From Myxacorys almedinensis A (lineage in GTDB: Bacteria; Cyanobacteriota; Cyanobacteriia; Leptolyngbyales; Leptolyngbyaceae): a stretch of DNA of 64,000 bases. The translations under genes were made by a program, and so were the position numbers. This document shows positions 28,747 through 35,129 of this stretch, one piece after another. Each line of letters opens with the position of its first letter. Position 1 is the stretch's first letter. The stretch is from contig NZ_WVIE01000002.1 in assembly GCF_010091945.1 (NCBI RefSeq), positions 115,270 through 179,269 on the forward strand. The letters are read 5' to 3'. A model generated the notes under the pieces. That model was not told where the DNA came from and did no database searches. It worked only from the letters and a program-made list of their open reading frames with translations.

Positions 28747-28806
28747 CGGTTCGTGACCCACCAAGTACTACCATGAAGCTTGGTAAAAGCAACCATAACC
28801 ACCTTT

Positions 28807-29490
28807 ATGAACGGGACGGACGATAAGACTGAGGTACGAGACTATTTCAACGCAACGGGCTTCGATCGCTGGCGGCGAATTTACGGTGATGGCGACGTTA
28901 ACAAAGTTCAGCTTGATATTCGAGCGGGGCATCAGCAAACCGTAGACACCTTGCTGGGTTGGCTCAGAGCAGATGGCAATCTTTCAGGGCTGACGATTTG
29001 TGATGCAGGGTGCGGAGTGGGCAGCTTGAGTATTCCCCTCGCTCAGGATGGGGCGATCCTCTTTTCTAGCGATATTTCAGAGAAAATGGTCGGTGAAGGA
29101 AGAGAACGGGCAGTTGCCGCCGGATTGAGGGATAATCCGACCTTTTCAGTCAGCGATTTAGAGGAGTTGACCGGGAGCTATCATACGGTTGTCTGTTTGG
29201 ATGTGTTGATTCACTATCCGAGCGACCAAGCCATGGATATGATCAAGCACTTGGCAAGCTTGGCAGAACATCGGCTTGTTCTCAGCTTTGCGCCCAAGAC
29301 CTTTTTGCTAACGCTGTTAAAGAAAGTCGGTGAGTTTTTTCCTGGACCGAGTAAGACCACTCGCGCCTATCAACATCGTGAAGCTGACATTATCCGGGTG
29401 CTAGAAGGGTGCGGATTGATGATCGAGCGATCGGCGATGACTAGTACACGATTCTACTTTTCGCGGATGCTCGAAGCGGTTAGAAAATGA
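28807..29490 (+). CDS. chlM: Magnesium-protoporphyrin IX O-methyltransferase ChlM
   Basis: A 227-residue SAM-dependent enzyme that methylates the C13 propionate of Mg-protoporphyrin IX in chlorophyll synthesis. It starts MNGTDDKTEVRDYFNATGFD, the characteristic ChlM N-terminus; the TTG at 28780 is an unlikely start. DAGCGVGSLSIPLA is SAM motif I, FSSDISEKMV motif II and VCLDVLIHYP motif IV. The GEFFPGPSKTTRAYQH segment and FYFSRMLEAVRK tail are family-typical. It has a long leader with a terminator-like hairpin at 28715-28746. The product acts at the chloroplast-type thylakoid or cytoplasmic membrane surface. Confidence 0.95.
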   Translation: MNGTDDKTEVRDYFNATGFDRWRRIYGDGDVNKVQLDIRAGHQQTVDTLLGWLRADGNLSGLTICDAGCGVGSLSIPLAQDGAILFSSDISEKMVGEGRERAVAAGLRDNPTFSVSDLEELTGSYHTVVCLDVLIHYPSDQAMDMIKHLASLAEHRLVLSFAPKTFLLTLLKKVGEFFPGPSKTTRAYQHREADIIRVLEGCGLMIERSAMTSTRFYFSRMLEAVRK

Positions 29491-29539
29491 AGTTGGGGGA
29501 GTGATCAGTCCTCATGCACGCTGCGCTAGAGTATCCCTC

Positions 29540-29557
29540 ACAAGTTCCTCAACTTGT
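29540..29557. other. Perfect 7-bp hairpin after chlM
   Basis: ACAAGTT-CCTC-AACTTGT lies 50 bp past the chlM stop with no T-run. A very similar string (CACAAGTTCCTCAA) recurs in the terminator-like site at 34590. It may be part of the chlM 3' end. Confidence 0.4.
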
Positions 29558-29727
29558 TGATTTATAACAAGGCTAGGGAATGGATACGGACGAACCCCAG
29601 ATTTCCTGGATGCAGACAGACCACAAGGCTGAACAACAAAAGGCTGAAGTACTCATGCCGAAGAGCCGTAGTCAAGCCGTTGTAAGTCAGGGAGCGGTAG
29701 TCCACAAACAAGAGTTGAGGTGTTGTT

Positions 29728-30234
29728 ATGTTTCAGAAACTTCTAGTCGCGATTGATCGCTCTAGTGAGAGCCGCTCGGTCTTCGAGGCAGCCTTGGCGA
29801 TGGCAAAAGCAAGCCATGCTTCGCTGATGGTGCTGCATGTCCTATCTCCCTTTGACGAGACCTATCCTACCGATCCTTACATTGGCGTTCCAACGATCGC
29901 AACCCAGGTTTACTTGGATCGGTGGAAAGAGCAAGAGCAAATTGGGATAGAAATCTTGCGATCGCTGCAAACAGAAGCCACCTACGCAGGTGTGCCAACC
30001 GAGTTTACGCAAAACCTGGGCGAACCGGGACGCACCATTTGTGCCTTGGCGAAAACCTGGAACGCCGATCTGATCTTGATTGGGCGGCGCGGTCTCAACG
30101 GGTTGAGCGAACTCTTTTTGGGCAGTGTCAGCAATTACGTAGTGCATCATGCGCCTTGCTCGGTGCTGATCGTTCAAAAGCAACCCCATGCTCACCCAAC
30201 TGAACAGCCCGCCACCGCCACGATCAGTGTCTGA
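29728..30234 (+). CDS. Universal stress protein (ATP-binding UspA type)
   Basis: A 168-residue Usp-fold protein. MFQKLLVAIDRSSESRSVFE opens the alpha/beta domain, and the nucleotide-binding signature G-2x-G-9x-G-S is intact in GRRGLNGLSELFLGSVSNYV, so ATP binding is expected. It ends PCSVLIVQK plus a short Pro/Thr-rich tail. The second Usp gene follows 29 bp downstream, so the two are probably co-transcribed, ahead of the signalling gene at 31000. Confidence 0.93.
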   Translation: MFQKLLVAIDRSSESRSVFEAALAMAKASHASLMVLHVLSPFDETYPTDPYIGVPTIATQVYLDRWKEQEQIGIEILRSLQTEATYAGVPTEFTQNLGEPGRTICALAKTWNADLILIGRRGLNGLSELFLGSVSNYVVHHAPCSVLIVQKQPHAHPTEQPATATISV

Positions 30235-30263: not shown

Positions 30264-30770
30264 ATGAGGTATGACCGCATTCTAGTTGTAGTTGATGTGC
30301 CAACGGTGGAGCTATATTTACTGACAGCCGCGATCGCTTATGGCAAGGCAACGGGCGCAGAGGTTCGCTTTTTGCACATCCTGCCGTTTGATCAACTGAC
30401 TGGGGTTGCTGATTCTGAGTACGACCAAACGTTGATTTGTCTGCGAGCCTGGCAAGCGATCGCGCGGCAATCTGGAGTTGCTGCCAGTATTGCTCAAGGG
30501 GTAAACAACCCCATGCAGGCAGTGAGGGAGATGGCGCAGTCGTGGTCAGCCGATTTGATTATGATCCCTAAAGAGCAAAAATCGCTCAGTCGATTTGCAC
30601 AGCCCCTTAGCTACGAAGCTATTGCGGCGTCTGTTGACTGTTCGGTGGTGGCGGTGCAGCAGTTGGTAGGCGATGCAGTCTCCGTTCAAATCAGGATTAA
30701 GCCAACGCAGAAACAGCAAATTGCAGTCACCAAAGCGCAACTAGAATTGCTATTTGCTAGATCCGGTTAA
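30264..30770 (+). CDS. Universal stress protein, degenerate nucleotide site
   Basis: A 168-residue Usp-fold protein (MRYDRILVVVDVPTVELYLL, then SADLIMIPKEQKSLSRF). Where family members carry G-2x-G-9x-G-S it has PKEQKSLSRFAQPLSYEAI, so the ATP loop is lost and it belongs to the non-binding Usp type. Its C-terminal extension (VRIKPTQKQQIAVTKAQLEL-like) is charged. It probably pairs with the intact Usp encoded 29 bp upstream, forming one operon; heterodimerisation is speculation. Confidence 0.85.
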   Translation: MRYDRILVVVDVPTVELYLLTAAIAYGKATGAEVRFLHILPFDQLTGVADSEYDQTLICLRAWQAIARQSGVAASIAQGVNNPMQAVREMAQSWSADLIMIPKEQKSLSRFAQPLSYEAIAASVDCSVVAVQQLVGDAVSVQIRIKPTQKQQIAVTKAQLELLFARSG

Positions 30771-30999: not shown

Positions 31000-33900
31000 A
31001 TGCGAATCTTAGTGGTCGAAGATGATCAACTGATTGTCGAAGCGTTGACAATTATTCTCGTGCGTCAAAACTATGCGATCGAAGTCGCAACCGATGGTCA
31101 GACAGCATGGAGCTTGATCGAACGGTTTGAGTATGACCTGCTTTTGCTGGATGTAACCCTGCCCAACCTAGATGGCATGACCCTGTGTCGGCAGGTTCGA
31201 GCTAAAGGGCTAACAACCCCAATTTTACTGCTGACCGGGCGAGATAGCGGACACGATAAAGCCATAGGGTTAGACGCCGGAGCCGACGACTATGTGGTAA
31301 AGCCGTTTGATCACGAAGAGCTTGTAGCTCGGATTCGAGCCTTGCTCAGACGAGGAGGCGCGCTGTCGCAACCGATTTTAGAGTGGGGCGCGCTGCAATT
31401 TGATCCGAGCAGTTGCGATGTGAGATACGCCAATCAGCCCCTCAATCTCACGCCAAAAGAATATGGAATGCTAGAACTGTTTCTTCGCAATAGTCGGCGC
31501 GTGTTTAGTTGCGACATGATTCTTGAACATCTCTGGTCATACGATGAAATGCCCGGAGCAGAAGCCGTGCGGACGCACATTAAAGGATTGCGCCAAAAGC
31601 TAAAAGCAGCCGGAGCAAACGCCGATCTAATTGAAACAGTCTATGGCATTGGCTATCGGCTGAAGCCCCTCGTGCAACCAGAACCTCATAAGTTATCTCC
31701 AGCCGTAGTTGAAGAAAGTGAAACTCAAACGACAACGCAACAGCAAACGCTAAGGCAAATTGCAGCCGTCTGGGAGCGCTTTAGAGGGCGAGTCAGTGAG
31801 CAAGTTGCCGTGCTAGAACAAGCGATCGCAGCCGCAACGCTGGACACTCTGACTGCTGACCTCAAGGCTGCGGCGGTGCGGGAAGCCCATACCTTAGCCG
31901 GATCGCTCGGAACGTTTGGGCTATCCAATGGCTCTGCGATCGCCCGTCGCCTAGAGCAAACGCTGCAATCGACAACTCCCCTCACATGCAGCGACATGGA
32001 AGCGCTTGGGGGACTGCTCAGCCAGTTGCGCCACGCGGTAGATCATCATGTCACCCACAACCTGGATGCAGGCGCGACCTCAGCACCCCTACCCCCATCG
32101 CCATTAGTGCTGATTGTCGGTCGAGAGGCGCAGCCAGAAGGGTTAATTCAGCAACTCCAACCCCTTGCCGCCCCCTATGGGATCACCACGATCGCAGCTT
32201 CAGGCTTCGCCAGTGCCCGCAAAACGCTGTATCACGATCATCCCAATGCTGTGCTAGTTGACGCTAGCGGTTCTGCCCAGCTAGACGAGAGCCTCGCTCT
32301 GATCGCCGAACTCAATCAGCGTAAGCCTCCTGTGCCCGTGCTGCTGCTCGCCGACCAAACCGACGTTAGCGATCGCATTCACCTGTCTAGAAGCGGCAAA
32401 CACACGCTGCTGAGTCCATCCCTACCGATAGAACAAATTTTTGGCTCAGTTCTGCGTGCCCTCAGCCAAGCCGATCCATCCGAAACCCAGGTGCTTGCCG
32501 TGGATGACGACCCCAACACTTTAGCGGTGTTACAGACACTATTGCAACCTTGGGGGTTACGAGTCACCACCCTAGCTGACCCGCGTAAATTTTGGCAAAC
32601 CCTAGAATCGGTTGCCCCAGACCTGCTCATTCTAGATGTTGAAATGCCATATTTTAGCGGCACTGAGTTGTGTCAAACGATTCGGAATGATTCGCGTTGG
32701 AGTGAATTGCCGATTGTTTTCCTAACGGTTCACAACGATGCTGAGATGATCAATCATGTATTTACCGTGGGAGCCGATGATTTTGTCAGCAAGCCGATCG
32801 TGGGGTCTGAACTGGTGACTCGGATTGTGAATCGGTTGCAGCGCCATACGTTAGCGTGTCGTGTCGCTCAGTTGCATCGATCGCGATCGCTGGTTGAACC
32901 TCGAATTGCCCAAAACCCAACCCAAGACGCCCTCAAGCTTGTCCAAGCGCGCTTGGCTACCATTATCGATATTGCCGACGATGCGATTATCTGCACTGAT
33001 CAGACGCAGCGCATCACCCTATTTAACCAGGGCGCAGAGAACATTTTTGGCTACGCTGCCCACGAAGCACTGGGGCAACCGCTCGACCTCTTGTTGCCCG
33101 TTGCATCTGTGCAAGCTCACCGCCAGCACGTCAAGGCTTTCGGGCGATCGCGGCAGCCGGCTTGCCGAATGGGAGAGCGGCAAGAAATCTACGGCAGGCG
33201 TAAAGATGGCAGTGAATTTCCGGCGGAGGCGTCGATTTCGCAACTGAAGGCAGAAGACACGATCATCTACACGGTTTATCTCAGAGATGTGAGCGATCGC
33301 AAGCAGATCGAGCGGATGAAAGATGAGTTTGTTTCAGTAGTAAGCCACGAACTGCGAACCCCGCTCACGTCGATTCATGGCTCCTTGAAACTACTGGCGA
33401 GTGGGTTACTCAGTGCTGAGTCTGAACGAGGTAAACGCCTCCTCCATATTGCGGTGGAAAGCACAAATCGCTTGGTGCATCTGATCAATGACATTCTAGA
33501 TATTGAGCGGATCGAATCTGGTCAGGTAAAGATGGAGACCGTCGCCTGCCAACTGCTCGATCTGATCGCCGCCGCCGTGACCCTGATGCAGCCTTTGGCA
33601 GAAAAAGCAGGGATTACGCTCCTCGTGACGAGCCTGCCGGTAGACCTGAGGGTGGATCGCGATCGCATCATTCAAACCCTGACGAATCTGTTGAGCAATG
33701 CCATCAAGTGTTCGTCTGTGGGCACAACGGTATGGCTGAAGACCGCCCTAATAGACGACCCAGCCTCCCCTCGGTCTCGCGTTTTGCTGGTCACGGTGGA
33801 AGACAAAGGGTGCGGCATTCCGGCAGATAAACTTGAGGTGATTTTTGAGCGCTTTCAGCAGGCAGATTCCTCGGATTCTCGCCACCATGATGGAACGGGG

Positions 33901-34074
33901 CTAGGACTGCCGATTTGTCGCAGTATTGTAGAGCAGCACGGGGGGCGAATTTGGGTCGAGAGTGTAGTTGGCGAAGGCAGCATCTTTTATTTCACTATCC
34001 CGTTGCCATCTGGGCAATCAAACGATTTGGAGGACAATTTGGAGGGGCAGTTTGTAGCTGTCACCTCTTGCTGA
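31000..34074 (+). CDS. Hybrid one-protein phosphorelay: OmpR regulator + HPt + 2 REC + PAS + histidine kinase
   Basis: A 1024-residue cytoplasmic protein. In order: receiver 1 (1-117; Asp51, Lys101), OmpR/PhoB winged helix (about 130-225; TPKEYGMLELF, IETVYGIGYRL), HPt (about 245-335; His297 in EAHTLAGSLG), a degenerate receiver (about 365-490; Asp421 kept but the acidic DD pair is missing), receiver 3 (about 494-620; VDDDP, Asp546, Lys in VSKP), PAS (about 645-760), HisKA (His783 in VSHELRTPL) and HATPase (NLLSNAIK, DKGCGIP, GTGLGLPICRS). There are no membrane segments, so the signal is intracellular, probably through PAS. All four phosphotransfer elements and the DNA-binding output are in one chain. 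A lone receiver gene follows 121 bp downstream. Confidence 0.92.
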   Translation: MRILVVEDDQLIVEALTIILVRQNYAIEVATDGQTAWSLIERFEYDLLLLDVTLPNLDGMTLCRQVRAKGLTTPILLLTGRDSGHDKAIGLDAGADDYVVKPFDHEELVARIRALLRRGGALSQPILEWGALQFDPSSCDVRYANQPLNLTPKEYGMLELFLRNSRRVFSCDMILEHLWSYDEMPGAEAVRTHIKGLRQKLKAAGANADLIETVYGIGYRLKPLVQPEPHKLSPAVVEESETQTTTQQQTLRQIAAVWERFRGRVSEQVAVLEQAIAAATLDTLTADLKAAAVREAHTLAGSLGTFGLSNGSAIARRLEQTLQSTTPLTCSDMEALGGLLSQLRHAVDHHVTHNLDAGATSAPLPPSPLVLIVGREAQPEGLIQQLQPLAAPYGITTIAASGFASARKTLYHDHPNAVLVDASGSAQLDESLALIAELNQRKPPVPVLLLADQTDVSDRIHLSRSGKHTLLSPSLPIEQIFGSVLRALSQADPSETQVLAVDDDPNTLAVLQTLLQPWGLRVTTLADPRKFWQTLESVAPDLLILDVEMPYFSGTELCQTIRNDSRWSELPIVFLTVHNDAEMINHVFTVGADDFVSKPIVGSELVTRIVNRLQRHTLACRVAQLHRSRSLVEPRIAQNPTQDALKLVQARLATIIDIADDAIICTDQTQRITLFNQGAENIFGYAAHEALGQPLDLLLPVASVQAHRQHVKAFGRSRQPACRMGERQEIYGRRKDGSEFPAEASISQLKAEDTIIYTVYLRDVSDRKQIERMKDEFVSVVSHELRTPLTSIHGSLKLLASGLLSAESERGKRLLHIAVESTNRLVHLINDILDIERIESGQVKMETVACQLLDLIAAAVTLMQPLAEKAGITLLVTSLPVDLRVDRDRIIQTLTNLLSNAIKCSSVGTTVWLKTALIDDPASPRSRVLLVTVEDKGCGIPADKLEVIFERFQQADSSDSRHHDGTGLGLPICRSIVEQHGGRIWVESVVGEGSIFYFTIPLPSGQSNDLEDNLEGQFVAVTSC

Positions 34075-34195: not shown

Positions 34196-34576
34196 ATGGC
34201 TACAAAACGAATTTTAGTAGTGGATAATGAAGAATATATTCAGGAAGTTGCCAAAATTTGTTTAGAAACGGTAGCAAACTGGGAGGTAATCACGGCAAGT
34301 TCGGGTCGAGAAGGGATTGAGAAAGCCGAAACTGAACAGCCAGATGCAATTTTGCTCGATGTGATGATGCCCGATATGGATGGATTGGCAACCTTTCAAA
34401 AACTGCAAGCTAACCCTATGACTCAGGCGATTCCAGTGTTTCTGCTGACCGCAAAAATACAAGCCGCCGATCGCCGACACTATACCGAGTTAGGAGTGAA
34501 AGATGCGATCGCTAAACCGTTTGAACCGCTTGATCTGGCTCATCAAATTGCTAGAGCGCTAAATTGGAATCTATAA
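34196..34576 (+). CDS. Single-domain response regulator (CheY-like)
   Basis: A 126-residue receiver from MATKRILVVDNEEY (the longer reading from 34166 adds 10 residues). The phosphoacceptor is Asp55 in AILLDVMMPDMDG, the acidic pair DN/E is at 10-13, Thr in FLLTAKI and Lys in AIAKPFEP. There is no output domain. As a neighbour of the hybrid kinase it is a natural phosphate acceptor or shuttle for it. A terminator-like site follows at 34593. Confidence 0.92.
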   Translation: MATKRILVVDNEEYIQEVAKICLETVANWEVITASSGREGIEKAETEQPDAILLDVMMPDMDGLATFQKLQANPMTQAIPVFLLTAKIQAADRRHYTELGVKDAIAKPFEPLDLAHQIARALNWNL

Positions 34577-34592
34577 ATTTCGTAATCTTCAC

Positions 34593-34611
34593 AAGTTCCT
34601 CAAACTTTTTT
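34593..34611 (+). terminator. Short terminator-like hairpin after the lone receiver gene
   Basis: A 5-bp stem AAGTT/AACTT with loop CCTCA runs into six Ts (34606-34611), 17 bp past the stop codon. It is weak but well placed. Confidence 0.5.
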
Positions 34612-34763
34612 CTTATTTTGACACTAGAGAGTCTATTCACCACCGTTGGGCTTTTCTCGGTCACGCTTCAAATAGGGGGCATAGAAGCGATGAATGACTG
34701 CTGTCCAGACATCCTCTGAAACGATTACAAACGGTCTTTAATATTAAGTCACGAGGTTTGAGA

Positions 34764-35129
34764 ATGTCTAAAGTCATCGTAAATACAACACTACCAACCG
34801 TTGTTTCTGAAATCGATCAGGTTCTAGAGATGTATCCGAGTCATCCTCATCAGCAAGTTTTTGCCAATCCTGACAACCGCCAAAAGCTAGTGGCGTATGT
34901 GTTGACGCGAGTTCACAACCATTATGCGGTGGTCGATGAGGAGAACTACTGCGATCGCGCGTCTAATAGTGACGCCGAGCTTGCATCCGTGTATGCCGAT
35001 CCGTGGCTTTATGTCGAAGCGATCGTTCGCCAAGGCATTGATGAAATGCTTCAGCAGCAGGAGATGAGCAATTGTCAGCTTCCTGAAGCGGAATACACAG
35101 GCATGATTGCGTCTCACTGGTTTGGGTAG
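34764..35129 (+). CDS. ComFB-like small protein (tentative)
   Basis: 121 residues from MSKVIVNTTLPTVV; GAGG lies 6-8 bases before this ATG. The segment QKLVAYVLTRVHNHYAVVDE followed by a helix (YVEAIVRQGIDEML) resembles the ComFB domain, whose usual core is xVxAYALNRLPPLYxT; some cyanobacterial ComFB proteins bind cyclic-di-GMP. The Pro-Pro-Leu part is replaced by HNH, so the match is partial. There are no Cys ligands. It stands alone downstream of the signalling block. Confidence 0.45.
   Translation: MSKVIVNTTLPTVVSEIDQVLEMYPSHPHQQVFANPDNRQKLVAYVLTRVHNHYAVVDEENYCDRASNSDAELASVYADPWLYVEAIVRQGIDEMLQQQEMSNCQLPEAEYTGMIASHWFG

Follow-up and report, generated by a model that had tools for sequence, protein, structure and literature searches.

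The stretch of DNA analysed here (the window) comprises 64,000 nucleotides of the Myxacorys almedinensis A contig NZ_WVIE01000002.1. On its forward strand, at positions 31000–34074, lies an open reading frame (ORF) of 1024 codons that runs without interruption. Its product, hereafter the window protein, joins a phosphorelay regulator to a histidine kinase in a single chain. The gene is followed by a lone receiver gene and a ComFB-like gene and preceded by two usp genes, all on the same strand. We read this locus as an RcaC/RfpB-type phosphorelay regulator fused in frame to a PAS-histidine kinase of its own; a neighbouring gene encodes the third component of the relay, and the fused regulator would act via a predicted operator found twice in the window. 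We give this reading a probability of about 0.6. Relatives are cited below by the numbers of fetched stretches (L) and genomes (G).

The domain order of the window protein is REC, OmpR winged helix, HPt, decayed REC, REC, PAS, HisKA, and HATPase_c. Six Pfam families (Response_reg, Trans_reg_C, Hpt, PAS_9, HisKA, and HATPase_c) each exceed their curated cut-off. Response_reg (7.3e-60) matches in two stretches, which correspond to the first receiver (REC1; residues 3–113, positions 31006–31338), with the phospho-acceptor D51, and the third (REC3; 32488–32865), with D546. Between them lie an OmpR-type winged helix (Trans_reg_C 1.7e-22 at residues 146–221; 31435–31662), whose recognition-helix stretch EAVRTHIKGLRQKLK was compared across relatives, and an HPt domain carrying H297 (Hpt 2.2e-11 at residues 257–345, 44.3 bits against a cut-off of 24.6; 31768–32034). 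The C-terminal part consists of a PAS sensor (PAS_9 1.7e-13 at residues 660–766; 32977–33297), a HisKA domain with H783 (1.9e-19 at residues 773–841; 33316–33522), and HATPase_c (1.9e-28 at residues 886–1003; 33655–34008). An earlier, sequence-only reading of this DNA had placed a kinase, an HPt, three receivers, and an OmpR winged helix in one 1024-residue chain. Pfam and a fold model of the middle receiver agree with it, the residues it named (D51, H297, D421, D546, and H783) are all present at their positions, and the domain search it had named beforehand as a check recovered both the HPt (44.3 bits) and the winged helix.

Pfam detected PAS families only in the sensor part, with no GAF and no phytochrome domain, and found no AraC family in the protein, whose regulator part lies before the kinase. 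No hydrophobic stretch was seen on inspection by eye, no membrane predictor having been used. Among the 25 listed of 166 matching NCBIfam models, RppA is the sole one above its cut-off (262.1 against 250), a match that reflects the N-terminal pair of receiver and winged helix; none of these best 25 covers the whole chain. Of the seven HPt places in its genome, one is in a winged-helix protein. A full-length AlphaFold2 model was weak (pTM 0.27, with residues 624–846 below pLDDT 50), and domain contacts were therefore left out of the interpretation.

A single long frame can arise when a sequencing or assembly error joins two genes, the circumstance that the sequence-only reading had named as fatal to its claim. 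Such an artefact at 31000–34074 is extremely improbable. The genome G260 matches residues 1–1003 at 58% in a single frame, 22 other genomes carry the same fusion, and no point in support of an artefact was found.

The middle receiver (REC2; 32104–32466) has no Pfam match, lying below the threshold. Its AlphaFold2 model, built from nine sequences (pLDDT 80.8, pTM 0.75), shows the receiver pattern of five strands alternating with helices. Nearly all of the best 50 of its 237 matches in the PDB (E ≤ 0.001) are receivers or receiver-containing proteins, the first listed having an E-value of 8.7e-06 and a TMq of 0.71. REC2 keeps D421, and its acidic pair, already reported as missing from the sequence alone, is replaced by V-G at residues 373–374; the lysine is also lost. 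REC2 is dispensable, because a profile built for it in this analysis finds nothing in 15 of 22 fused relatives. For the sensory role proposed for this domain, no support was found.

The N-terminal portion of the window protein (REC, winged helix, HPt, an optional REC, and REC) is hereafter called the chassis. Searches with residues 121–640 in 58 related genomes and with the whole protein in 388 genomes of the class show that the chassis is present in many cyanobacteria; 179 of the 388 match some part of the window protein at E 1e-120. A broader contig scan with generic peptide stretches also returned many ordinary regulators of other phyla among the 80 loci retained from the matches listed. 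Its cyanobacterial loci were used, serving for gene order, names, and structure alignments, and at least 14 of them (L112–L123, L127, and one more that is cut) contain the chassis among the matches listed. By its order of receiver, winged helix, (HPt), and two receivers, and by its kinase and single-domain receiver partners, the window protein is assigned to a wide RcaC-type regulator family.

What is attached to the C-terminus of the chassis varies, as read with profiles built in this analysis. It may be nothing (about 620 residues), a GGDEF domain (about 800 residues), or HisKA-HATPase. The last is mostly accompanied by PAS and sometimes by extra PAS/GAF domains or two more receivers, details that come from Pfam searches of eight relatives (two are separate kinases). 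Fusion of the chassis to a kinase was counted in 23 genes from 23 genomes among the fetched stretches, the window included, and a PAS match occurs in 22 of the 23. The phosphorylatable sites are conserved among the fused relatives, with D51, H297, and H783 kept in 22/22 and D546 in 20/22. On a tree of 82 rows, the three attachment states (alone, GGDEF, or kinase) change 22 times in all, and the attachments have therefore been swapped repeatedly. The fused label accounts for nine of these changes, at least four of which are forced by well-supported branches. L038 and L039 are cut-off copies of fused genes, not chassis-alone genes.

GGDEF fusions of the chassis are common, making up 33 of the 82 tree rows (L037, L041, L086, and L091 among them), and some of them have a lone receiver and a separate orthologous kinase next to them. 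Such a protein could be one regulator able both to bind DNA and to make cyclic di-GMP. One kinase-fused relative (G005) sits on a 1.2-Mb plasmid of Kovacikia minuta. Another, at L069 4384–7595 (G262), is broken near its end into ORFs of 965 and 105 residues that overlap by a few bases, which is either a sequencing error or a real fission. On a predicted conjugative plasmid of Nostoc sp. C052 (L193), a chassis relative annotated 'response regulator' lies among heavy-metal and copper genes.

The order of domains in the window protein had been described as inverted. The regulator is indeed N-terminal and the kinase C-terminal, and the oddity has an explanation in gene order. Four stretches (L073, L095, L096, and L104) have neighbouring genes, all on one strand, for chassis, kinase, and lone receiver in this order, so the 'inverted' order arises because a regulator gene was fused to the kinase gene that lies downstream of it in several unfused relatives. 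These three-gene runs share the order rfpB-rfpA-rfpC. Different orders are also found, with the kinase and receiver preceding the chassis in L119 and L121. In a kinase tree, which carries a program warning of long branches, the fused kinases group with kinases near split chassis genes and apart from six of eight other local kinases. The two others that fall inside the group are one with a very long branch and that of L093, where the chassis is cut by the contig end and the rows are labelled 'not next to chassis' for that reason alone. Gene fusion of the regulator with the kinase, leaving the third gene separate, would be the simplest reading of these sequences. Single proteins with a histidine kinase, several receivers, and an HPt have already been surveyed (PMC4558063), so the number of domains is in itself no novelty; what is new is the fusion with the regulator first, as a variant of RcaC/RfpB-type relays. 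Literature searches on the architecture returned no paper containing all the terms sought.

The lone receiver gene (34196–34576) encodes 126 residues with D55 (Response_reg 1.4e-24) and resembles the third components RcaF and RfpC. In 15 of the 23 fused loci (14 relatives and the window), the fused gene is followed on its own strand, within 400 bp, by a lone receiver; one of the same clade lies within 3.6 kb in three more (L068, L069, and, on the other strand, L087), giving 18 of 23 overall. These 18 receivers fall in one clade (98/96), together with 11 from split or GGDEF loci and that of L093. Outside it fall three further lone receivers of the window's genome, one from L088, and three found in the L089 and L103 stretches. 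The stretch ILLDVMMP occurs in 17 of the 18, the lone receiver of L090 being divergent and lacking it. On this adjacency and clade membership, the protein at 34196 is taken to be a conserved third component of the relay.

What the lone receiver does bears on a further claim of the sequence-only reading, that a whole phosphorelay could run in one polypeptide without a partner. The relay domains and His-Asp-His-Asp sites do lie in the chain. A self-contained route from H783 to D546 to H297 to D51, leaving the lone receiver as a side branch or phosphate sink, is a tentative alternative that deserves serious weight, although we consider it less probable than participation of the lone receiver. It draws on the presence of all four sites in the chain, on the conservation of D546 in 20 of the 22 relatives, and on four fused loci (L070, L076, L083, and L085) where there is room for a lone receiver and none is near; the L075 stretch ends too soon to show one. 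A kinase-to-receiver-to-HPt route in one chain is also supported for CdgK of Anabaena (PMC9927289). Against it stand the lone receivers near the gene in 18 of 23 loci and, in particular, two relatives (L082 and L088) whose chains have neither REC2 nor REC3 and which are adjoined by a lone receiver with its aspartate. In L088, the position of D546 holds no receiver, but other sequence that resembles GAF by eye, and the apparent 'D546:H' is an alignment artefact. Because both internal C-terminal receivers are missing there, the lone receiver must supply the first aspartate in these two proteins if a His-Asp-His-Asp relay runs. As the sole reading, the self-contained relay is thus weakened by L082, L088, and the conservation of the lone receiver, and independence from a partner becomes doubtful. 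The suggestion that the lone receiver could tap the same relay was right to tie it to the relay, although the role of a relay step is more probable for it than that of a tap. In the window too, by analogy with RcaF and RfpC as described in the parts of the literature consulted (PMC8256508, PMC4658448), the lone receiver would be a relay member, and REC3 may act in parallel with it.

Candidate DNA targets of the regulator were sought as 7-N4-7 direct repeats before 40 chassis genes, where TGAGGAA-N4-TGAGGAA turned up in six fused loci. In the direction of the genes, the predicted operator reads TTCCTCA-CAAG-TTCCTCA, followed 11 bp later by TAnnnT. A form with a TTG spacer (≤2 mismatches) occurs in the stretches of 16 of the 23 fused loci and in split ones, twice in the window, with 33 matches altogether in 697 kb, where the reversed pattern has 4. 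With at most one mismatch, the pattern TGAGGAANTTGTGAGGAA has 361 sites in 111 of 376 genomes of the class, against 16 reversed-pattern matches (counted by eye). An extended element (≤3 mismatches) is present in 140 of 376 genomes against about 18 control matches, also by eye. The operator is presented as a new prediction; no claim is made that its sequence is unpublished, and the literature on it was not searched.

The presence of the operator follows the closeness of each genome's best match to the window protein. It rises from 14/199 genomes with no match at 1e-120 through 17/54, 33/63, and 15/24 to 32/36 in the closest class, the measure being the best match to any part of the protein, kinase part included. 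Genomes with a best match at E ≤ 1e-180 thus differ sharply from the others (32/36 against 79/340; Fisher 6e-15, related genomes not being independent), and three of the four exceptions in the closest class (G033, G096, and G181, not G189) hold an extended-element site. Sites also lie near the regulator genes: 14 of the 23 fused loci hold one, where the site count of each genome would predict 0.19. Membership of the window protein's clade is marked by the winged-helix stretch AVRT[HQ]IK, and the operator motif occurs in 43 of 47 scanned genomes with a carrier of this stretch against 5 of 20 that have only non-carriers among the fetched genes. Carriers without the motif at one mismatch are found in L010, L046, L047, and L102. 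Some apparent exceptions were resolved on closer search, G185, G092, and G249 holding close relatives and G236 and G254 holding fused frames.

The spacing of the predicted promoter was not used in choosing sites. Of 116 sites, 69 have TAnnnT at a distance of exactly 11 bp on the downstream side, and every other offset from 0 to 39 is represented at most 7 times. Promoters of the PhoB type contain a pho box, two 7-base direct repeats 4 bp apart, about 10–11 bp before the -10 element. The predicted operator has the same repeat geometry with a different repeat sequence, and a direct-repeat operator at a fixed distance from -10 is an OmpR/PhoB class II arrangement. By analogy, the layout would be that of an activator box replacing the -35 region, and the window protein would probably be an activator here.

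The extended element occurs three times in the window's genome (control 0), and two of these sites flank the fused-gene operon. The three places were taken from separate site lists and agree in count and strand with the extended-element scan. Operator 1 (TCCCTCA-CAAG-TTCCTCA; 29534–29551, forward strand) points toward usp1, with the -10-like TATAAC 11 bp after it (29563–29568) and 160 bp from there to the usp1 start. Its predicted target usp1 (29728–30234; Pfam Usp 3.4e-37) is followed in the same direction by usp2 (30264–30770; Usp 1.5e-10). Operator 2 (ATCTTCA-CAAG-TTCCTCA; 34585–34602, forward strand) points toward the ComFB-like gene, with TATTTT 11 bp later (34614–34619) and 145 bp between this and the gene start. 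The ComFB-like gene (34764–35129, forward strand) is the second predicted target; it scores 21.7 bits with PF10719, below the cut-off of 25, and its homologue in L066 scores 29.2, above it. The third operator (contig C11:116788; L211) lies 98 bp before an 86-residue ORF of the NrtS family (nitrate/nitrite transporter).

Neighbouring genes were examined for 116 distinct sites from fetched stretches, about a third of the 361 and the window's second site, 60 of the stretches having been picked from the site listing before their genes were seen. At 94 of the 116 sites, a neighbouring ORF is shared with another site. One site may be counted for both of its flanks in the resulting clusters, the genomes include relatives that are not independent of each other, and names rest on one or two representatives each. 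Usp is the commonest (19 sites in 18 genomes), followed by phosphoenolpyruvate (PEP) synthase (12 sites), both passing their cut-offs. Hydrogenase maturation protease (6 sites), pyruvate formate-lyase (PFL; 3), Hsp20 (3), and alternative oxidase (2) also pass. A cluster resembling PFL-activase and NrdG (6 sites) passes for PFL-activase and not for NrdG. Those below cut-offs are BLH-phosphatase-like (8 sites), pyruvate:ferredoxin oxidoreductase (PFOR; 8 sites in 6 genomes, its representative a cut-off fragment), and FeoB-like (2). The remainder include small pentapeptide-repeat proteins in mixed orientation (L235 1645–2037 and relatives; 9 genomes), a protein of 84 residues that has CxxC pairs and matches nothing in Pfam or NCBIfam (L261 1621–1872 and relatives; 6 genomes), ComFB-like (4 sites), a radical-SAM protein (3), and a dihydroorotate dehydrogenase-like protein (2, in one genome), and there are further clusters beyond those named. 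The regulator itself neighbours 7 sites, but the promoter points away from it; autoregulation is therefore not claimed. In clusters with at least three sites, 78 neighbouring ORFs have the stated orientation and 15 do not. The element faces usp, then HoxE and HoxF, in six fused loci (L071, L072, L077, L078, L079, and L081); NCBIfam models for HoxE and HoxU pass on L071, and the hox genes of the other loci were named by similarity. Taken together, the neighbours point to stress, hydrogen, and fermentative metabolism, which suggests a low-oxygen or fermentation regulon in the relatives.

Several results weigh against the main reading of the locus, in addition to the four fused loci without a lone receiver and the lack of enrichment of the known RcaC site, the L box, described below. 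Nine of the 23 fused loci have no site at one mismatch or fewer. In the first look at repeats, spacer 4 stood out (125 against 30 in shuffles), but so did spacers 3 and 7 (106 and 112 against about 27), an excess that probably represents simple repeats. A loose 14-base pattern has 9 matches in the window against 6.4 expected, with 21 of 100 shuffles as high, and is only about twofold enriched in the genome (50 against 24); the case for the operator therefore rests on the spacer and the -10 element as well. Operator sites also occur in G333, G335, and G362, where no RcaC-type relative passed the thresholds used, the nearest protein of G335 being a plain OmpR-type regulator of about 230 residues; the site may serve a different OmpR protein in these genomes, or they may have lost the regulator. 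Lastly, neither HoxE nor PFOR was detected in the window's own genome, where one search lacked a positive control genome and another was positive in 10 of 14 controls. The fermentation reading therefore comes from the relatives, and Hox or PFOR as targets in this strain were rejected. The predicted targets left in its own genome are those of the usp, ComFB-like, and NrtS-family kinds. Instead of oxygen, the protein may sense redox, energy, or darkness.

Some of these observations would be expected if the operator belonged to another transcription factor and its nearness to the fused genes reflected a shared regulon, not the specificity of the window protein. The three genomes with sites and no detected RcaC-type relative, the nine fused loci without a near site, and the six hox loci whose promoter points away from the regulator gene fit such an account. 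It does not readily accommodate the genome-wide association, the agreement of the recognition helix, the closeness of sites to both fused and split versions of the chassis, or the OmpR-type 7-N4-7 geometry with a -10 at 11 bp, and we regard it as unlikely.

Binding by the window protein remains the preferred reading, and the following mechanism is proposed. The PAS domain would sense an intracellular cue, perhaps low oxygen or a reducing state, and H783 would be phosphorylated. The phosphoryl group would then pass to a receiver (D55 of the lone receiver and/or D546 of REC3), to H297 of the HPt, and on to D51 of REC1. The OmpR-type helix, perhaps held as a dimer by the kinase, would bind the direct repeat and activate the promoter whose -10 lies 11 bp downstream, in the window those of usp1-usp2 and the ComFB-like gene, and in relatives those of stress, hydrogenase, and fermentation genes.

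The closest known systems regulate responses to light. RcaC contains an HPt, and it shares its receivers and winged helix with the window protein. In Fremyella diplosiphon, where RcaC, RcaE, and RcaF govern complementary chromatic acclimation, RcaC is described with three CheY-like receivers and a winged helix (PMC4390838), and RcaE phosphorylates it via RcaF, RcaC binding L-boxes in promoters (PMC8256508). The window protein differs in having HisKA and HATPase_c in the same chain, where RcaC proper is a regulator without its own kinase, a PAS domain in place of a bilin photosensor, a different predicted operator, and predicted targets that are not pigment genes. The published order rfpB-rfpA-rfpC of far-red photoacclimation (PMC4658448), that is, regulator, kinase, and lone receiver, is common to the window in fused form and to L073 and L095 as separate genes. 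RfpB, RfpA, and RfpC are three separate proteins with a phytochrome sensor, and an HPt is not mentioned in the part of that paper drawn on here; the sensor part of the window protein has PAS families alone. A light-colour regulator controlling phycobiliprotein or far-red genes would account for the shared chassis and gene order. It is nevertheless very improbable, given the sensor without GAF or phytochrome domains, operator neighbours in relatives that are stress and anaerobic genes, and an L box that is not enriched in the 4.96-Mb genome, with 2 matches at one mismatch or fewer against 2 for reversed-pattern controls. A role in chromatic acclimation was rejected on the L-box search.

Other single-chain or HPt-containing systems are less similar. 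Hybrid two-component systems (HTCS) are membrane sensors with an AraC-type output after the kinase, whereas the window protein has an N-terminal regulator, an OmpR-type output, an HPt, and three receivers. Those of Bacteroides do resemble it in combining a sensor kinase and a DNA-binding regulator in one polypeptide (PMC11253607). The CdgK/CdgS system of Anabaena PCC 7120 runs from the kinase to the second receiver, the HPt, and a receiver, and the first receiver can be deleted without effect; it differs in comprising two proteins with a GGDEF response regulator as output, not DNA binding (PMC9927289). A 2015 survey listed 50 arrangements of kinase, receiver, and HPt, including HKRR1HPtRR2 and HKRR1RR2RR3RR4HPt, and the sections of it used here mention no DNA-binding domain, which the window protein has (PMC4558063).

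A broader proposition is that the RcaC-type relay family, which takes a single-chain form in the window, is a widespread switch for low-oxygen, fermentation, and stress genes of cyanobacteria. It would act via TTCCTCA-CAAG-TTCCTCA-N11-TAnnnT on usp, hox, PFOR, PFL and its activase, PEP synthase, hydrogenase protease, and alternative oxidase, with the lone receiver as an obligatory phosphate shuttle. We rate this a little below an even chance. If true, fermentation genes would be linked to a sensed signal by an additional, direct route, a phosphorelay acting through an operator of its own that precedes hox, PFOR, and PFL genes. A 2026 review, in the portion used here, names ChlR, CyAbrB1/CyAbrB2, and SigE as regulators of low-oxygen, hox, and nifJ genes (PMC13421787). 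The prediction turns a list of domains into a testable circuit, in which a regulator with known relay sites is paired with a predicted operator and with two promoters predicted in the window, so that DNA binding, targets, and relay order can be tested together. The fused, split, and GGDEF versions, with L082 and L088, are natural variants for studying tethered relay parts. The operator is widespread, with up to 14 sites in one genome (G029), and the regulon still to be mapped is a large one.

In Synechocystis, ComFB acts as a receptor for cyclic dinucleotides (PMC12313861), which agrees with the frequency of GGDEF versions among chassis proteins and proves nothing. Upstream of the usp genes, the window also carries a gene for BchM/ChlM, the Mg-protoporphyrin IX methyltransferase (28780–29490; TIGR02021, 259 bits).

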